Part shown: positions 18,976 to 37,675 of the stretch, one piece after another
Layout: the number at the start of each line of letters is the position of its first letter
Position numbering within the stretch: position 1 is the first letter of the stretch
DNA from: Flavobacterium difficile
Lineage (GTDB): Bacteria; Bacteroidota; Bacteroidia; Flavobacteriales; Flavobacteriaceae
NCBI RefSeq assembly: GCF_011392115.1
Contig: NZ_JAAJBT010000001.1
Span: forward strand, 248,001 to 312,000
Length of the DNA stretch: 64,000 bases
Direction: 5' to 3'
Translations under genes and position numbers: made by a program
The notes under the pieces: generated by a model
Databases searched by the model: none
What the model was told of the DNA's origin: nothing
The model's input: only the letters and a program-made list of their open reading frames with translations

Positions 18976-19043
18976 AATTATAAAAATAAATTATATAAAT
19001 AATACCGAAAAAATTGCAAGGAAATACTAAAGGAAGAAAGTTC

Positions 19044-19096
19044 TGCTTTAGCATTTTTTTTACGAGGTTGCAATCAGTTCAAATTTTTCCTCTTTT
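19044..19096 (-). ncRNA. SAM-II riboswitch upstream of metK
   Basis: On the minus strand GAGG (19092-19089) pairs with CCTC (19067-19064) to close P1. Between them lie TTTGAACTGATTGCAA and, after P1, GTAAAAAAAATGCTAAAG. The TGATTGCAA and 3' TGCTAAA elements are the conserved core of the SAM-II (metA-type) pseudoknot aptamer. The aptamer begins about 14 nt after the -7 box. The 3' CTAAAG of the core can alternatively pair with CTTTAG at 19032-19027, giving a plausible switching helix. Covariance-model scoring was not run. Confidence 0.82.
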
Positions 19097-19105
19097 AATT
19101 CTGTG

Positions 19106-19737: not shown

Positions 19738-19758
19738 TAGAAAATTATTCTATTTTTG
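19738..19758 (+). promoter_or_regulatory. Promoter with inverted repeat upstream of the metB leader
   Basis: TAGAA-AATTA-TTCTA (19738-19752) overlaps the -7 box TATTTTTG (19751-19758). An almost identical stretch, AGAAAATTATTCTAAATTTG, sits at the second Met leader (34390-34409), and similar sequence extends about 35 nt upstream in both (TAAAATTTAGATAA). The symmetry suggests an operator for a sulfur-responsive regulator; that is inference. The 320-nt gap 19612-19931 otherwise holds only the leader ORF and terminator. Confidence 0.45.
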
Positions 19759-19801
19759 CCTCGTTAAAAAAAACAACAAAGTGCAAATAGTAACAAATAA
19801 A

Positions 19802-19855
19802 ATGATGATGCAATTGATGATGTGGAAAAGTTCCGCAGGGTATTCTATTTGTTAA
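19802..19855 (+). CDS. Met-rich leader peptide of the metB operon (Met leader 1)
   Basis: A 17-codon ORF encoding MMMQLMMWKSSAGYSIC, with five Met codons including ATG ATG directly before TGG. It ends 23 nt before a terminator. Hairpin arm 1 TGTGGAA (19821-19827) and arm 2 TTCCGCA (19831-19837) follow the sensing codons. GCAGGGT (19835-19841) can instead pair, with one bulged base, with ACCTCTGC (19879-19886), the 5' arm of the terminator. A ribosome stalled at the Met codons would free GCAGGGT and prevent termination, so low methionyl-tRNA should switch on the two downstream genes. Position and codon content are direct observations; the mechanism is inferred from classical attenuators. Confidence 0.8.
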   Translation: MMMQLMMWKSSAGYSIC

Positions 19856-19878
19856 ATCTAAAATAATAATATAAATAG

Positions 19879-19906
19879 ACCTCTGCTTTTGTAGAGGTTT
19901 TTTTTT
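19879..19906 (+). terminator. Attenuator terminator before metB
   Basis: ACCTCTGC (19879-19886) pairs with GTAGAGGT (19891-19898, one G-T pair) around a TTTT loop, followed by T8. It lies between the Met leader ORF and the metB-like gene. Confidence 0.88.
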
Positions 19907-19931
19907 GTCTAAAATTTAAAACTCAACCAAC

Positions 19932-21101
19932 ATGCAACTTGAAACTCTATTAGCTAATATCACTCAACATGCCAATTTAGTCGATGCTTATGGTGCGACT
20001 CATTTGCCGATTTACAATACCGCAACTTTCGATCATAAAAGGCAATTTCCTAATCATAAAAACTACGATTATTCCAGAACTGATAATCCAACTAGAAATG
20101 CCTTAGAAGATATTTTTACAATTGCAGAAAACGGTGCTGGCGGTGTATGTACTAATACAGGTGTTGGAGCATTAGCACTTCTTTTTGATACGGTTTTAAA
20201 ATCAGGCGATACTGTTTTAGTCGAAAGAGATTGTTACGGTGGAACTTACAGAATGTTAAATATTCTACTTGAAAAACAAAATATTAAAACATGTTATGCC
20301 GATTTTACAGATGCAATTGAAGTAGAAAATGTATTGAAAAATAATGCTATAACACTTGTTTTATGTGAATCTCCAACCAATCCAAGTTTAAAAATTGTAG
20401 ATTTAAAAGCAGTAGCAGAATTAAGTAAAAAATACAATGCTTTATTTGCGGTAGATAATAGTATGGCCACATTTGCTTCCCAAAAACCATTAGATTTAGG
20501 AGCGGATTTTTCGTTGTTTTCTGCCACAAAATTTATTTCTGGTCACGGAAGTGTGGTGGCTGGAGCTATTATAGCAAAAACTGACTATTGGGCAGAACGT
20601 TTATGCTATTTTTCTAACGCAAATGGGAGAGCGCAAAGTCCGTTTGATGTGTTTTTAGTATCATTAGGTTTGCCCACTTTAGTATACAGAATGAAAACGC
20701 AAGAGCAAAGCGCCATTCAACTTTCAGAATTTTTACTTTCGCTTTCAGAAGTTGTTGAGGTAAAATTTCCAGGGTTGCCCTCGCATCCGCAATATGAATT
20801 GGCTAAAAGACAGATGAAAATTATTCCTTCGGTGTTAACCATCACTTTAAAATCGGCAGAAAAATCGGAACAATTAATTCGAAATACGAAGTTATTTGGA
20901 GAAAAAGTATCTTTCGGCACTTCAGATTCAAGATTAGAAATTCCATCAAAAATGAGTCATGCTACTTACTCGGAAGAAGATTTAAAGAAAATAGGACTAA
21001 CTCATGCTACAGTTAGAATTGCTGTAGGATTGGAAAATGTTGACGATTTAATTGCTGATATACAACAAGCTTTAAAAATAGAAACTAGTAAATGTGTGTA
21101 A
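19932..21101 (+). CDS. metB: Cystathionine gamma-synthase / O-acetylhomoserine sulfhydrylase-type PLP enzyme
   Basis: A Cys/Met-metabolism PLP enzyme of 389 aa (fold type I). The PLP lysine is in SLFSATKFISGHGSVVAGAI, with the cofactor segment YDYSRTDNPTRNALEDI upstream and the substrate-side LCESPTNPSLKIVDL. It would join O-acetylhomoserine, made by the MetX encoded at 34810, to cysteine or sulfide. Sequence alone does not separate cystathionine synthase from direct sulfhydrylase. It overlaps closely with the second PLP gene, whose ATG follows one base after this stop. It lies behind the Met leader attenuator. Confidence 0.88.
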   Translation: MQLETLLANITQHANLVDAYGATHLPIYNTATFDHKRQFPNHKNYDYSRTDNPTRNALEDIFTIAENGAGGVCTNTGVGALALLFDTVLKSGDTVLVERDCYGGTYRMLNILLEKQNIKTCYADFTDAIEVENVLKNNAITLVLCESPTNPSLKIVDLKAVAELSKKYNALFAVDNSMATFASQKPLDLGADFSLFSATKFISGHGSVVAGAIIAKTDYWAERLCYFSNANGRAQSPFDVFLVSLGLPTLVYRMKTQEQSAIQLSEFLLSLSEVVEVKFPGLPSHPQYELAKRQMKIIPSVLTITLKSAEKSEQLIRNTKLFGEKVSFGTSDSRLEIPSKMSHATYSEEDLKKIGLTHATVRIAVGLENVDDLIADIQQALKIETSKCV

Positions 21102-21102
21102 A

Positions 21103-22593
21103 ATGAGTACAACGGTTGAAAATTATTTTAATGAGATTCCATGTGGCGCAACGATTCCTTTAAATAATCCGCATGCGGTTTCAGTTAGTTTGCCGAAAAT
21201 TCAGGATGTTGTCGATTATGAAGAAGGAAAATCACATGTTCTTGAGGTAATGAAATCGGGTTATCCGAGGTTTTTTCAAAATCATTTTGTGAAACAATTA
21301 ACGGATTATATCAAAGCAAAAAATCAGATTTCAGATGAAAAGAAACTGATTCCAATTTCTTCGATTCAAGCTAAAAATAATATCGAAAAAGTGTTTCAAG
21401 TGGTTTTCGAATATATTAAAGATGAATTTGAAAATGTGTTTTTAATTTTAGATTCCAATGATGAAAACGCTAAAAAATATACAGATTTTATCAGAAATGC
21501 GGGATTGATTATTAGTTCAAGAAAAGCGGAAGCAACTTTATATGAATTGCGGGTTATCGATACAATTTTTAAGGAAGAAACGGTGGAAGAAGCGGAAGCT
21601 ATTTCGAACATTAAAAACACCTTAAGTGAAGCTTACGGTTCTTCTTCAGAGAATATTGTTTTGTCTAATTGCGGTATGAATGCTTTATTTGCGGCTACTG
21701 AAGCTTTAGTTGCTGTTCAACAAGAATTTAGAAAAACAAAAATTGTACAATTGGGTTGGTTGTATGTCGATACCATGGAAATTATCGAAAGAAAAGGAAA
21801 TTTTCATCTTCAAGTCAATGTTTTCGATTTAGTTCAACTAGAAAATTGGCTGGAAATTCATCATGAAAGTGTTGCTGTGATGGTTACAGAAGTGGTGAGT
21901 AATCCGCTTTTACAATGTGTAGATTTGCCTAAATTATATGAAATATGTTCGTGGTTTTCTGTTAAATTAATTGTAGATAATACTTTAGCCACGCCGTTTT
22001 GTGCAGATGTTTTGCCGTTTTGTGATGTGGCAGTAGAAAGTCTAACTAAATTCGCATGTGGTAATGCCGATTTGCTTTTAGGAGCAATTATAGCAAAAGA
22101 TAGAAGTTTAATTGCGTTGCTTCATGAATATGTAATTCCACCTTTTGAAGGAGAAATTAAAAGGTTGGGTTTTGAAATATTAGAGTATGAAAATAGAGTT
22201 CGTAAAGTTTCTGAAAATACAATTTTACTTTACGAATATTTAAAAAAGCAAGCAAAAGTATTGGAAGTAAAAAGTGTGTTTCATACTGCGAATGGGGAAA
22301 ACTATTCGAAAATTCAAAAAGGAAATGGTGTTCCGGGTTTATTATCGATTGTGTTTGATAAAAGTTTAGCATTTTATTACGATAAGTTACAAATAGCGAA
22401 AGGCCCTAGTTTAGGAACTGAATTTACATTAGCAATGCCTTACGTGTATTTGGCTCATTATGAGTATTTAAAATCGGCAGAAGGTTTAAGTCAACTCAGT
22501 GAATTGGGAATCAATCCGGATTTATTGCGAATTTCTGTTGGAACAGAGCCGATAGAAGCTATTGTCAAAGCTTTTCAGTGGATTTTAGAATAA
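21103..22593 (+). CDS. Second, long Cys/Met-metabolism PLP enzyme
   Basis: A 496-aa protein from the ATG at 21103; an in-frame GTG at 21094 lies inside the previous gene and is less likely. The first ~170 residues (ENYFNEIPCGATIPLNNPHA, SGYPRFFQNHFVKQL) are extra relative to normal cystathionine gamma-synthase. The remainder is a fold-type-I PLP domain with Lys in VESLTKFACGNADLLLGAII and VSNPLLQCVDLPKLYEIC. The layout and the YPRFF segment recall the long fungal-type cystathionine gamma-synthase, from memory. It is probably a trans-sulfuration partner of the preceding enzyme; substrate unknown. Confidence 0.75.
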   Translation: MSTTVENYFNEIPCGATIPLNNPHAVSVSLPKIQDVVDYEEGKSHVLEVMKSGYPRFFQNHFVKQLTDYIKAKNQISDEKKLIPISSIQAKNNIEKVFQVVFEYIKDEFENVFLILDSNDENAKKYTDFIRNAGLIISSRKAEATLYELRVIDTIFKEETVEEAEAISNIKNTLSEAYGSSSENIVLSNCGMNALFAATEALVAVQQEFRKTKIVQLGWLYVDTMEIIERKGNFHLQVNVFDLVQLENWLEIHHESVAVMVTEVVSNPLLQCVDLPKLYEICSWFSVKLIVDNTLATPFCADVLPFCDVAVESLTKFACGNADLLLGAIIAKDRSLIALLHEYVIPPFEGEIKRLGFEILEYENRVRKVSENTILLYEYLKKQAKVLEVKSVFHTANGENYSKIQKGNGVPGLLSIVFDKSLAFYYDKLQIAKGPSLGTEFTLAMPYVYLAHYEYLKSAEGLSQLSELGINPDLLRISVGTEPIEAIVKAFQWILE

Positions 22594-22691: not shown

Positions 22692-22744
22692 TATAGAAAA
22701 TTTATCTATAAAAATTGGTTTCATGGAAAATTTGTATATCTTTG
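22692..22744 (+). promoter_or_regulatory. Promoter and inverted repeat of the cys operon
   Basis: The -33 TTG (22715-22717) and -7 TATCTTTG (22737-22744) are separated by 19 nt, a good Bacteroidetes promoter. Just upstream TATAGA-N7-TCTATA (22692-22710) is a perfect inverted repeat, similar in sequence to those at the metB, metX and metH promoters. It could be an operator, which is inference. The rest of the gap 22594-22691 is AT-rich without clear structure. Confidence 0.55.
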
Positions 22745-22763: not shown

Positions 22764-22820
22764 ATGACAAATAAATTTTGCAATAAGTGTTGTTGTATGG
22801 GGAAAATTTCCACAGAGTAG
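22764..22820 (+). CDS. Cys-rich leader peptide 1 of the cys operon
   Basis: An 18-codon ORF, MTNKFCNKCCCMGKISTE, with four Cys codons including three in a row. TGGGGAA (22798-22804) and TTCCACA (22808-22814) form a hairpin with one mismatch, directly after the Cys codons. CAGAG at 22813-22817 (then TA, GC) can pair with GCCTCTG of the terminator's 5' arm (22858-22864). The hairpin and following sequence align base for base with Met leader 1. Shortage of cysteinyl-tRNA would therefore be expected to allow read-through. Four Cys in 18 residues is far above chance in such AT-rich DNA. Confidence 0.8.
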   Translation: MTNKFCNKCCCMGKISTE

Positions 22821-22853: not shown

Positions 22854-22885
22854 AAAAGCCTCTGTTTTGCAGAGGCTTTTTTTTT
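22854..22885 (+). terminator. Attenuator terminator 1 of the cys operon
   Basis: AAAAGCCTCTG (22854-22864) pairs perfectly with CAGAGGCTTTT (22870-22880) around TTTTG and is followed by T5. Confidence 0.9.
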
Positions 22886-22905: not shown

Positions 22906-22980
22906 ATGAATTCAAAATCAAATAATAATACAGTTTCAACTTTAATTTGCTGTGGTTGCTTTTTCCAAAAGGAGCACTAA
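22906..22980 (+). CDS. Cys-rich leader peptide 2 of the cys operon
   Basis: A 24-codon ORF whose middle reads STLICCGCFFQKEH (three Cys in four codons, 22948-22959). The antiterminator arm AAGGAGC (22969-22975) near the end of the ORF is exactly complementary to GCTCCTT (23015-23021) in the terminator's 5' arm. The same AAGGAGC can be sequestered by GCTTTTT (22958-22964) overlapping the last Cys codon. This gives the three mutually exclusive helices of a classical attenuator. It lies in tandem behind Cys leader 1 and its terminator and does not share that leader's hairpin sequence. Confidence 0.78.
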   Translation: MNSKSNNNTVSTLICCGCFFQKEH

Positions 22981-23013
22981 TTTGGTATGAATATAATTCA
23001 AAACAGGTATAAG

Positions 23014-23045
23014 AGCTCCTTCAAATAGAAGGAGCTTTTTTATTT
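23014..23045 (+). terminator. Attenuator terminator 2 of the cys operon
   Basis: AGCTCCTTC (23014-23022) pairs with GAAGGAGCT (23028-23036) around AAATA and is followed by T-rich sequence. It is the second of two terminators the polymerase must pass before cysH. Confidence 0.9.
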
Positions 23046-23059
23046 AAAAGTAAATCAAA

Positions 23060-23755
23060 ATGAAAGAAAAATTATTAAAAATAGTAGCTGAAAGTAAAAC
23101 GTTAGAAGAAAAATTAAAACAAATATCTAATTTAATTCCAGGTAAAATAGTGTTTTCAACTAGTTTCGGAATGGAAGATCAAGTTGTTTCTCACGCTATT
23201 TTTTCGCAAAACATTGAAAATATTGAAGTGTTTACATTAGATACAGGTCGACTTTTTCCTGAAACTTATTCGGTATGGGATAAAACACAATTGCAATACA
23301 ATGCCAAAGTAAAAGCTTTTTATCCGAACTCAGAATCCATTGAAAGGTACATCAATGAAAACGGAATTAACGCTTTTTACAATTCAGTGGATTTAAGGAA
23401 AACATGCTGTTTCATTCGAAAAGTAGAACCGTTAAATCGGGCTTTGGAAGACGCAACAATTTGGATTACGGGTTTACGATCAGAACAATCTAATAACAGA
23501 AATGGGTTAAATGAAATAGAATGGGATCAAGAAAAACAACTGTTCAAATTCAATCCACTTCTAAATTGGTCAACTGATGAAGTAATGGAATATTTAAAAC
23601 AAAATGCTGTTCCTTATAATCCATTACACGATGAAGGTTTTATTAGTATTGGATGTGCGCCGTGTACTAGAGCTATAAAACCAGGTGAAGATTTCCGAGC
23701 TGGTCGTTGGTGGTGGGAAGAGCAATCCAAAAAAGAATGTGGATTACATAAATAA
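23060..23755 (+). CDS. cysH: Assimilatory APS/PAPS reductase
   Basis: Reduces activated sulfate to sulfite. The 231-aa protein has the PP-loop-like start KIVFSTSFGMEDQV, DTGRLFPETY, and the C-terminal ECGLHK with the catalytic Cys. It also contains the paired cysteines KTCCFIRKVEPL and IGCAPCTRA that ligate a [4Fe-4S] cluster. In this family the CC...CxxC set marks the iron-sulfur form, typically an APS reductase. No APS kinase gene is present in the operon, which agrees with APS as substrate. It is the first structural gene after the two Cys attenuators. Confidence 0.92.
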   Translation: MKEKLLKIVAESKTLEEKLKQISNLIPGKIVFSTSFGMEDQVVSHAIFSQNIENIEVFTLDTGRLFPETYSVWDKTQLQYNAKVKAFYPNSESIERYINENGINAFYNSVDLRKTCCFIRKVEPLNRALEDATIWITGLRSEQSNNRNGLNEIEWDQEKQLFKFNPLLNWSTDEVMEYLKQNAVPYNPLHDEGFISIGCAPCTRAIKPGEDFRAGRWWWEEQSKKECGLHK

Positions 23756-34389: not shown

Positions 34390-34409
34390 AGAAAATTATT
34401 CTAAATTTG
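34390..34409 (+). promoter_or_regulatory. Promoter with inverted repeat upstream of the metX leaders
   Basis: AGAA-AATTA-TTCT (34390-34402) abuts the -7 box TAAATTTG (34402-34409), the same arrangement as at 19738-19758. The upstream flank TAAAATTTAGATAA is also shared. The 542-nt gap 34268-34809 contains this promoter and two leader/terminator units and no other gene that I can support. Confidence 0.5.
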
Positions 34410-34429: not shown

Positions 34430-34498
34430 ATGAATTTAATAATTGACAATATGCGCTTTATGATGTGGAACCTTTCGCAGCGGGCTAGTATTGTATGA
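34430..34498 (+). CDS. Met leader peptide 2 (first of two before metX)
   Basis: A 22-codon ORF ending in MRFMMWNLSQRASIV. ATG ATG TGG is placed exactly as in Met leader 1. Arm 1 TGTGGAA (34464-34470) and arm 2 TTTCGCA (34473-34479) form the protecting hairpin. GCAGCGG (34477-34483) can pair, with one mismatch, with CCTCTGC in the terminator's 5' arm (34530-34536). The peptide shares the MMW(K/N)xS...SI pattern with Met leader 1, so the two look like copies of one element. Confidence 0.75.
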   Translation: MNLIIDNMRFMMWNLSQRASIV

Positions 34499-34527: not shown

Positions 34528-34557
34528 AACCTCTGCAATTTGTAGAGGTTTTTTTTT
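34528..34557 (+). terminator. Attenuator terminator 1 before metX
   Basis: AACCTCTGC (34528-34536) pairs with GTAGAGGTT (34542-34550, one G-T pair) around AATTT and is followed by T7. Confidence 0.88.
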
Positions 34558-34587: not shown

Positions 34588-34683
34588 ATGAAACAAACAA
34601 TCCAAACCATAAACTACACAACAATGAAAATGCGTACAATGTTTAGTATGCGTGAAAACTATTGCCAAAAACGGAAGATGTAA
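34588..34683 (+). CDS. Met-rich leader peptide 3 (second of two before metX)
   Basis: A 31-codon ORF whose second half reads TTMKMRTMFSMRENYCQKRKM, with five Met codons after the start. A shorter version could begin at the ATG at 34624. TTGCCAAAA (34662-34670) inside the ORF is exactly complementary to TTTTGGCAA (34711-34719) in the terminator stem, a 9-bp antiterminator. Stalling at the ATG cluster (34624-34650) would leave it free. It lacks the TGTGGAA hairpin of the other Met leaders, so it is a separate design in tandem. Confidence 0.75.
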   Translation: MKQTIQTINYTTMKMRTMFSMRENYCQKRKM

Positions 34684-34702: not shown

Positions 34703-34739
34703 AAAAACCCTTTTGGCAAACGTTCAAAAGGGTTTTTTT
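34703..34739 (+). terminator. Attenuator terminator 2 before metX
   Basis: AAAACCCTTTTG (34704-34715) pairs with CAAAAGGGTTTT (34725-34736) around GCAAACGTT and is followed by T7 in total. Confidence 0.9.
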
Positions 34740-34809: not shown

Positions 34810-35793
34810 ATGAAAACAGTACAAAATATAACAATATCAAATTTTTTACTTCAATCTGGTGAGGTTTGTAGAATCAATTTATCCTTTCAAACTTTTGGTT
34901 TGCCAATTGGAATGGCGCCAATAGTAATTGTCAATCACGCATTAACAGGAAATTCAAATGTAGCTGGTGAAAACGGTTGGTGGAAAGAAGTTGTGGGGGA
35001 AAATAAAGTAATAGATCCCCAAAAATTTACCATAATCGCCTTCAATATTCCAGGAAATGGGTACGATGAAATTCCTGAGAATTTAATTGAAAACTATAAA
35101 AGTTTTACGACTAAAGACATCGCGTCTCTCTTTTGGAAAGGGTTAGAATATTTAAAAATAGAACAACTTTTTGCAGTCATTGGTGGTAGTTTAGGCGGTG
35201 CTATCGCTTGGGAAATGGCTTTTATAAAACCAAAATCTATTCAAAATCTTATTCCCATTGCCACAAATTGGAAAGCTAATGATTGGCTAATTGGAAATGT
35301 TTTAGTACAAGATGCGATTCTGAATCATTCAATCAATCCAATTCATGATGCCAGATTGCATGCGATGCTTTTATATCGAACACCAGAATCGTTAACCGCG
35401 AAATTTAACTCAGAAAAGAATGGCAATCAGGATAGTTATAAGGTTGAATCCTGGTTGCTGCATCATGGCGAAAAATTAGCAGGTCGATTTCAATTAAGTG
35501 CCTACAAATTAATGAATCATCTTTTAAAGACTATTGGTGAAAGTTATTCGGAAAAAGATTTGCAAAATTTCATACTAAGCAGCAATACAAAAATTCACCA
35601 AATAGCGATTAATAGCGATTATTTTTTCGCTCCAAATGAAAATATCAAAACACATAATTTGTTAAGCAATCTCACAAAGAACATTACGTATCATGAAATA
35701 AATTCTATTCATGGTCATGATGCATTCTTGATAGAATATGAACGATTAAACTATATTTTAAAAACAATTATTAACGCAAAACACACAACTTAA
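34810..35793 (+). CDS. metX: Homoserine O-acetyltransferase
   Basis: Acetylates homoserine, committing it to methionine. The 327-aa alpha/beta hydrolase shows SFQTFGLP, IVNHALTGNSNVAGENGWW and the nucleophile elbow VIGGSLGGAIAWEMA (Ser about 128). A late acid segment is AINSDYFFAPNE, and SIHGHDAFLIE carries the catalytic His. It is a little shorter than most MetX proteins. It is preceded by two Met attenuators and followed 2 nt later by homoserine dehydrogenase, which makes its substrate. Confidence 0.9.
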   Translation: MKTVQNITISNFLLQSGEVCRINLSFQTFGLPIGMAPIVIVNHALTGNSNVAGENGWWKEVVGENKVIDPQKFTIIAFNIPGNGYDEIPENLIENYKSFTTKDIASLFWKGLEYLKIEQLFAVIGGSLGGAIAWEMAFIKPKSIQNLIPIATNWKANDWLIGNVLVQDAILNHSINPIHDARLHAMLLYRTPESLTAKFNSEKNGNQDSYKVESWLLHHGEKLAGRFQLSAYKLMNHLLKTIGESYSEKDLQNFILSSNTKIHQIAINSDYFFAPNENIKTHNLLSNLTKNITYHEINSIHGHDAFLIEYERLNYILKTIINAKHTT

Positions 35794-37507: not shown

Positions 37508-37530
37508 CATCGTTCATAAGCATAATGATT

Positions 37531-37633
37531 GTTATCACGAAAGGTGGAGGGATTAGACCCTGCGAAACCTTAGCAACCCTACGCTTGTAGAAGGTGCTAC
37601 ATTCTATTTCGATTTTAATCGGAAACAGATAAC
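37531..37633 (+). ncRNA. SAM-I (S-box) riboswitch upstream of metH
   Basis: P1 is GTTATC (37531-37536) with GATAAC (37628-37633). The core GAAAGGTGGAGGGATTAGACCC and then TGCGAAACCTTAGCAACCCT matches the S-box pattern of a GAGGGA-type internal loop and the conserved GCAACC. The P3 and P4 hairpins follow (GCTTGTAGAAGGTGC; TTTCGATTTTAATCGGAAA). SAM binding should repress methionine synthase. No U-tailed terminator follows, so control is probably at translation, or via a platform I could not resolve in 37634-37736. Confidence 0.9.
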
Positions 37634-37675
37634 CAGAAAATTTTCACCACTTTTCGCTGATACCAATATAAAGTT

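Follow-up and report, generated by a model that had tools for sequence, protein, structure and literature searches.

The leader whose ORF probably begins at position 19781 of the window, the whole 64,000-nucleotide stretch of Flavobacterium difficile DNA that was analysed, most probably acts as a ribosome-mediated transcription attenuator reading the charging of tRNA-Met, a reading to which we assign a probability of about 0.87. It is favoured because the Met and Cys codons are conserved in frame, the antiterminator covaries, the codons match the pathway of the genes that follow and independent second leaders repeat the arrangement. The earlier note on this DNA, made from the letters alone, had suggested a Met-sensing attenuator, and the same four lines of evidence support that suggestion. 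The element is very likely a real regulatory one, wider than first noted. For the leaders as a whole, ribosome-mediated attenuation of transcription in response to the charging of Met and/or Cys tRNA is the best reading of the sequences.

The ORF at 19802-19855 translates as MMMQLMMWKSSAGYSIC and carries ATG at five codons (19802, 19805, 19808, 19817 and 19820). The helices and this 17-aa ORF lie where the earlier note had placed them, but the T run comprises nine bases rather than eight and the peptide is probably longer. The reading frame is open upstream to GTG 19781, seven codons before ATG 19802, which gives the 24-aa peptide VQIVTNKMMMQLMMWKSSAGYSIC, and in F. terrigena (L001) and F. bernardetii (L002) an ATG stands at the codon matching this GTG (peptides MQLGNNKMMMQMMMWKISAGYSIC and MQLGNNKMMKHMMMWKISAGYSIC, respectively). 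Therefore, a leader peptide of 24 aa is probable. The start at 19781 is likely, not certain, since GTG 19781 and ATG 19802 both have A at -3 and -6, which favours initiation in F. johnsoniae (PMC6847099). The antiterminator pairs as had been claimed but is longer, with a second segment of 7 bp (TCTATTT/AAATAGA), and an A+T-rich spacer separates the leader hairpin from the terminator. Upstream, a -7 element fits the F. johnsoniae consensus TAHHTTTG (PMC6847099), and transcription would be expected to start near 19763. The corresponding site in L001-L004 reads TATTTTTG or TAATTTTG; the motif TANNTTTG is a short one, with 93 matches in the window, fewer than in shuffles. The metB-like gene starts 76 bases after the stop of the leader ORF, and among the 25 NCBIfam families listed for its product none reached the cut-off. 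The features are collected in Table 1.

Table 1. Positions of the leaders, their RNA elements and the genes behind them in the window.
Feature	Position	Strand	Remarks
-7 promoter element TATTTTTG	19751-19758	+	matches F. johnsoniae consensus
Leader ORF	19781-19855	+	24 codons from GTG 19781, or 17 from ATG 19802
Protector/pause hairpin TGTGGAA-AAG-TTCCGCA	19821-19837	+	arms 19821-19827 / 19831-19837; begins in last Met codon
Antiterminator 5' strand	19835-19850	+	GCAGGG 19835-19840, TCTATTT 19844-19850; within 3' end of leader ORF
Antiterminator 3' strand	19873-19886	+	AAATAGA 19873-19879, CCTCTGC 19880-19886; last seven bases also terminator 5' arm
Intrinsic terminator	19877-19906	+	CCTCTGC 19880-19886 / GTAGAGG 19891-19897, T9
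Putatively regulated gene, Cys/Met-metabolism PLP-dependent enzyme (metB-like), 389 aa	19932-21101	+	PF01053, E 2.3e-108
-7 promoter element TATCTTTG before cys operon	22737-22744	+	
Cys leader 1, MTNKFCNKCCCMGKISTE	22764-22820	+	
Terminator of Cys leader 1	22854-22885	+	antiterminator mimic ACAGAG in ORF
Cys leader 2, MNSKSNNNTVSTLICCGCFFQKEH	22906-22980	+	
Terminator of Cys leader 2	23011-23041	+	3' arm mimicked by AAGGAGC in ORF
cysH, first gene behind tandem Cys leaders	23060-23755	+	
-7 promoter element TAAATTTG before metX	34402-34409	+	
Met leader 1 of metX, MNLIIDNMRFMMWNLSQRASIV	34430-34498	+	
Terminator of metX Met leader 1	34528-34557	+	
Met leader 2 of metX, MKQTIQTINYTTMKMRTMFSMRENYCQKRKM	34588-34683	+	
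Terminator of metX Met leader 2	34704-34739	+	ORF TTGCCAAAA complementary to 5' arm TTTTGGCAA
metX-like acyltransferase, first gene behind tandem Met leaders	34810-35793	+	best TIGR01392, below cut-off

In the proposed mechanism, RNA polymerase would start near the expected site and a ribosome would follow it on the leader ORF. When Met-tRNA is scarce, the ribosome would stall at the Met run and cover the protector hairpin, leaving the antiterminator 5' strand free to pair with its 3' strand, which includes the terminator's own 5' arm. The terminator could not form, because the antiterminator would occupy that arm, and the metB-like gene would be transcribed. When Met-tRNA is plentiful, the ribosome would reach the stop codon at 19853 and sit on the antiterminator arm, allowing the terminator to form; that a ribosome at this codon would cover the antiterminator 5' strand follows from the geometry. 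Translation initiation uses fMet, and a shortage of Met should therefore also slow initiation on the leader, which counts against a Met-sensing model.

The folding analysis proposed in the earlier note bore out a structured leader, with a z-score of -2.6 and none of 200 shuffles equally stable. The antiterminator with both segments reaches -14.2 kcal/mol, the terminator alone -13.0 and the protector -6.2. The three helices had been described as mutually exclusive, and this holds for the antiterminator and the terminator, which share an arm, but protector and antiterminator are only partly exclusive, because they overlap by just three bases. In equilibrium folding of a transcript ending just past the terminator 5' arm, the antiterminator forms with a mean pair probability of 0.96 when the protector region is present and 0.97 when it is absent; the protector by itself thus does not account for an OFF state in the absence of a ribosome. 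Once the transcript is complete, the terminator becomes the favoured structure, even with the upstream part masked, when the antiterminator has a probability of 0.23. The mechanism thus needs kinetics: as modelled, the leader logic is one of kinetic attenuation, in which the protector perhaps acts as a pause hairpin and not as a strong block.

Covariation was counted in alignment A3 (38 leaders), since A1 had misplaced a one-base frame difference; in A3 the last antiterminator pair is formed in only 19 of the 38 leaders and one window row is off by a base. For the antiterminator 87.5% of cells are paired, with 17 double changes vs 3.9 in shuffles, a number equalled in 0/500 of them, where the shuffles ignore the relatedness of the leaders. 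The terminator has 99.4% of its cells paired and 38 double changes. The protecting hairpin proposed in the earlier note is present, but of the three helices it has the weakest support: folding is not decisive about it, and its covariation is weak (88.5% of cells paired, five double-changed cells vs 2.3, a score reached by 27/500 shuffles). Three sites change together in the series GCAGAGG-CCTCTGC-GCAGAGG, GCAGCG-CGCTGC-GCAGCG and GCAAGGG-CCCTTGC-GCAAGGG. Moreover, across 44 non-redundant leaders the antiterminator duplex is more stable between a leader's own strands than with swapped partners (-14.9 vs -11.4 kcal/mol, p 1e-8), the own partner being the best of all 44 in only 6/44 leaders. Taken by itself, the second segment shows hardly any specificity (p 0.045; own partner best in 0/44).

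The window holds five such leaders, namely the one at 19781, two Met leaders in tandem upstream of metX and two Cys leaders in tandem upstream of cysH. Each metX leader has its own terminator and antiterminator mimic. By our own cut-offs, three of the 14 strong terminators in the window have a Met/Cys-rich short ORF, and in 200 replicates in which the DNA upstream of terminators was swapped at random the mean was 0.17 and the maximum 2. Within one genome, Met-codon leaders thus stand at Met genes and Cys-codon leaders at sulfate-assimilation genes.

The pattern ATGATGTGGN{3,12}CGCRGNG was searched in 299 Flavobacterium genomes and, in its strict form, occurred at 82 places in 76 of them, compared with 14 matches in 13 genomes for the backwards control. 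The 83 rows inspected consist of 77 of the 82 pattern places, the two of the window and L001-L004. A leader ORF with a terminator and at least three Met was found in 73 rows, corresponding to 69 distinct places (four were seen twice). The first ORF downstream is akin to a sulfur, Met or homoserine protein of the window in 72/73 rows (68/69 distinct places, the exception being L043), as judged by BLAST against a set limited to 17 proteins from that part of the window. The conservation of Met codons in Flavobacteriaceae, named earlier as a check, was thus found in many species, and many relatives add Cys codons: peptides such as MKLTICNMCCMMWKISAGRVIV and MNLIICNMCCMMWKFPQRTFIA are typical of the genus, which suggests that many leaders read Cys besides Met. 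In a named genome collection six loci were found, four of them from Flavobacterium. A gene-centred search in 81 genomes of the genus for each gene found cysH in 56 and metX in 66; among 30 inspected loci of each, our own finder placed a leader next to the gene in eight for cysH and six for metX, where the remaining loci may be operon-internal genes. At L210, L213, L217 and L218 a leader-like MNKSLQMNKMFNVARICVRVC (or ..ICVCVC) with a terminator lies about 725-750 bases upstream of metX. A BLAST search with the whole leader was discarded; matches were listed in 40/40 relatives, a tally that is meaningless because only four (L008-L011) of the ten loci inspected had the leader and six were without it.

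Beyond the genus, model R1, which also matches Cys leader 1 of the window, had matches in 205 of 299 genomes of the family at E up to 0.01. Outside the window, the 29 R1 loci with the best matches (E up to 1.1e-6) include 26 with a Met/Cys leader, from 17 genera including Flavobacterium; since R1 was trained on such leaders, its hits are to some extent bound to contain Met codons, a circularity from which the second leaders are exempt. The three loci without a leader (L157, L159 and L160) are among the weakest of the 29, and we therefore suspect that many weaker R1 hits are plain terminators. In 24 of the 26 leader loci, L136 included, the first downstream ORF is metY-, metB- or metX-like; L138 and L149 differ. 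The Met/Cys leader of L138 lies about 63 bases ahead of an ORF that resembles an outer-membrane receptor by eye and is perhaps an uptake gene within the regulon. At L123, from another family (f2) of the same order, MINQLNNYTVFSMSETEGKQLIMMMSLSMMMWMQSVYMKV with a terminator precedes metY. Upstream of metY, where Flavobacterium has the leader, a SAM-I riboswitch was found at 10 of 14 scanned loci outside the genus.

A second terminator with its own ORF is common behind the first. Second leaders were sought at 97 loci (72 of the 73 genus rows and 25 model hits), of which 73 have room for one, with 110 bases or more separating the first terminator from the gene, and 24 do not. A further terminator with an ORF was found at 59 of the 73 loci with room, giving 55 distinct peptides; the other 14, at which the finder detected no terminator, were excluded. 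The ORFs were picked by length and position only, blind to Met and Cys, and L149, where the longest ORF is not the Met-rich one, was kept in the count. At least 20% Met+Cys was reached by 52 of the 55 peptides (for example MIFNTNTMMMAMMMMNMMMFTTPYCLKSTS and MNVIAKNMMSCMMMHMMMCCIGICYYQKRKT), and the mean Met+Cys content is 33% in frame vs 10% and 1.5% in the shifted frames, many of the peptides being related. This frame bias is the strongest sign in the sequences that Met and Cys codons were selected as codons. Tandem leaders are thus common, not universal. Behind the first attenuator and ahead of metY or metX, L034 carries an extra short ORF MKIAIYNPRRCCRMCS, for which no terminator was found, and L038 carries MEVRIYIPRRYCRMCS with a terminator; other loci with a short gap probably carry a similar extra ORF.

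The balance of the two codons differs between pathways. In first-type leaders Cys/(Cys+Met) is 0.54 before cysH, cysD or cysE (11 peptides, range 0.40-0.80) vs 0.12 before metX, metB-like, metH or homoserine genes (19 peptides, range 0-0.33), with L228 and L064 included (0.56 and 0.11 without both) and the mostly mixed metY leaders excluded; the p of 3e-6 is only indicative, because the peptides are hand-picked and related. The part of the ORF that mimics the terminator arm is constrained differently. Its GCAG lies in phase 0 in 23 leaders (..SAE/SAG..) and in phase 2 in 49 (..PQR..), and the first in-frame stop follows the mimic after 21 bases in 21/23 of the former and after 22 bases in 45/49 of the latter (66/72 together), so that the stop is the same place reached in two frames. 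The RNA arm is thus unchanged where the peptides differ, and the mimic part is kept as RNA, the Met/Cys part as codons.

Further leaders were found across the class. Model R2, built on an alignment that includes Cys leader 1 of the window, matched seven of 296 class genomes at E up to 1e-4, five of them Flavobacterium, the window's own included; the other two are L224, a real leader from another family, and L225, which is without a leader. Among those listed, five non-Flavobacterium members of the family gave no R2 match. The L224 leader precedes a nitrite/sulfite reductase gene (PF01077), and a search with this reductase protein had matches in 36/149 class genomes. A Cys/Met-rich leader with a terminator, such as MNYTIHTILNKGMMCCMMCCCPRGMEMSC, was present at 19 of the 30 inspected reductase loci (L229-L258), from 13 other families of Bacteroidia. 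Several of these loci have two Cys/Met leaders in series. In a stricter test of the 27 reductase loci with full flanks, a terminator-linked ORF lay upstream of the gene in 20, and 21 of 27 such ORFs (16 loci) had at least 20% Met+Cys vs 0/7 at other terminators, a comparison set of only seven. No Rfam match appeared in any of the 20 reductase loci scanned. The chance seems slightly better than even that sulfur assimilation and the synthesis of Met and Cys are governed in much of Bacteroidia by leaders that read the charging of Met- and Cys-tRNA, commonly two in series, tuned for each operon by the Cys:Met codon ratio and evolutionarily interchangeable with SAM-I riboswitches at the same genes.

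Other explanations of the 19781 leader have to be weighed against attenuation by codon reading. The ribosome may be arrested by the nascent peptide itself, as in TnaC and plant CGS1, with free Met, SAM or Cys as the signal, rather than by stalling at codons. The N-terminal half of first-type leaders (..ICNMCCMMW..) does recur across many species, as such an arrest would favour, but the recurring W stems from the hairpin TGTGGA and is replaced by C, S, R or G in leaders whose hairpin is altered. The half that follows the Met run is read in two frames over unchanged RNA and is not conserved as peptide, and second-leader peptides, close relatives aside, have little in common beyond Met and Cys. 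Peptide-mediated arrest is therefore very improbable.

It is still a little less probable that a ligand, bound by the RNA in the manner of a SAM riboswitch or by a protein, controls the terminator while the ORF is incidental. Neighbouring Met genes do use SAM riboswitches, and SAM-I occupies the same place before metY in other genera; however, the enrichment in Met and Cys codons is confined to one frame, inspection of the alignments revealed no further conserved block, and no Rfam family reached its cut-off in the leader region. Among its 38 Rfam matches at E up to 10 the best, a Brucella sRNA (E 0.003), was far below cut-off, and T-box was absent; none of the SAM riboswitch families (SAM-I, SAM-II and others of Rfam 15) matched at 19740-19940 up to E 10, and the Leu, Trp, His and Phe leaders of Rfam, whose cut-offs lie at 41 to 55 bits, scored 12.1 to 19.5 bits. 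The least probable explanation is an unregulated, constitutive terminator, which would either end a transcript from upstream or give rise to a small RNA. Terminators can presumably act alone, but the covarying antiterminator needs the 3' end of the ORF, a promoter-like element lies upstream and the element is located ahead of sulfur genes. Attenuation through the reading of Met codons thus remains the preferred reading.

The trp and his attenuators of enteric bacteria combine a codon run, three competing helices and a terminator with a T run. The present leaders share this plan; in contrast to them, they mix Met and Cys, often stand two in series and have no sequence relation to these leaders at the Rfam cut-offs. 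Among the closest described counterparts is MetL of Campylobacter jejuni, a proposed leader peptide of 20 aa with three Met codons before metBA (PMC3847290), whose start was later observed by ribosome profiling (PMC11955535). It is likewise a short multi-Met ORF, carried on a short, terminated RNA ahead of genes for Met synthesis, with ribosome stalling and antitermination proposed (PMC3847290, PMC11955535), and a further Met-rich short ORF, CJsORF19, precedes a methionine-transport gene (PMC11955535). In contrast to the present leaders, MetL belongs to Epsilonproteobacteria, is attributed by its authors only to C. jejuni, C. coli and C. doylei, and, compared by description, comes with no mention of Cys codons, tandem copies or covariation in the accessible parts of these papers. 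Cys leader peptides were described for the cys operons of Mycobacterium and Propionibacterium and for cbs of Bifidobacterium (PMC1262725). These also place Cys codon runs before sulfur genes, but they are without conserved terminator hairpins and Rho was suggested (PMC1262725), whereas the present leaders have intrinsic terminators and antiterminators. The uORFC-8-2 motif before cysS in Rhodobacterales, for which ribosome-mediated attenuation was proposed, resembles them in its tandem Cys codons and intrinsic terminator but is found in Alphaproteobacteria before a tRNA-synthetase gene (PMC8632094).

Closer relatives also have candidate attenuators. For amino-acid operons of F. psychrophilum, of the same genus, attenuation by leader peptides was proposed (PMC9723704), and leader-like short ORFs were reported in Bacteroides thetaiotaomicron (PMC7366714), of the same phylum; both are 5' regions with short ORFs proposed to attenuate. 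In the section on the F. psychrophilum attenuators, amino acids are specified only through the pheA and hisG elements, and the word 'methionine' is absent from the main text of that paper (PMC9723704). The suggestion of novelty in the earlier note has to be moderated, since a Met leader in C. jejuni and attenuators in F. psychrophilum had already been proposed. In the literature searched, mostly open-access and taken without supplements, no description of Met/Cys leaders in Bacteroidetes was found. A survey of attenuation in bacteria by Lopatovskaya and others (2010) reportedly exists and may contain earlier predictions for Bacteroidetes. It is listed among the references of PMC4833913.

If the class-wide reading is true, Met leaders have to operate even though a lack of Met impairs initiation too, which poses the question of how a sensor of Met starvation functions when the same starvation limits the initiator tRNA. 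In textbooks, the RNA sensors of methionine genes are SAM riboswitches. In this large lineage, charged tRNA appears to be sensed instead, with one short peptide reading both Met and Cys and often with two consecutive attenuators. Such leaders would define a sulfur-metabolism regulon in Flavobacteriaceae, account for many of the short ORFs ahead of sulfur genes and provide a natural set of switches whose Cys:Met sensitivity is graded. How riboswitch and leader peptide replace each other ahead of metY can be studied directly within a single order.

Two minor observations concern the surroundings of these leaders in the window. The 499-aa protein encoded at 21094-22593 has a Cys/Met PLP match confined to residues 185-494, and its best NCBIfam family, BesB, is far below cut-off. 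A SAM-II riboswitch lies at 19038-19098 on the minus strand before metK and a SAM-I riboswitch at 37529-37635 on the plus strand before the metH N-terminal part, which together with the leader peptides makes three types of RNA sensor for one set of Met genes.
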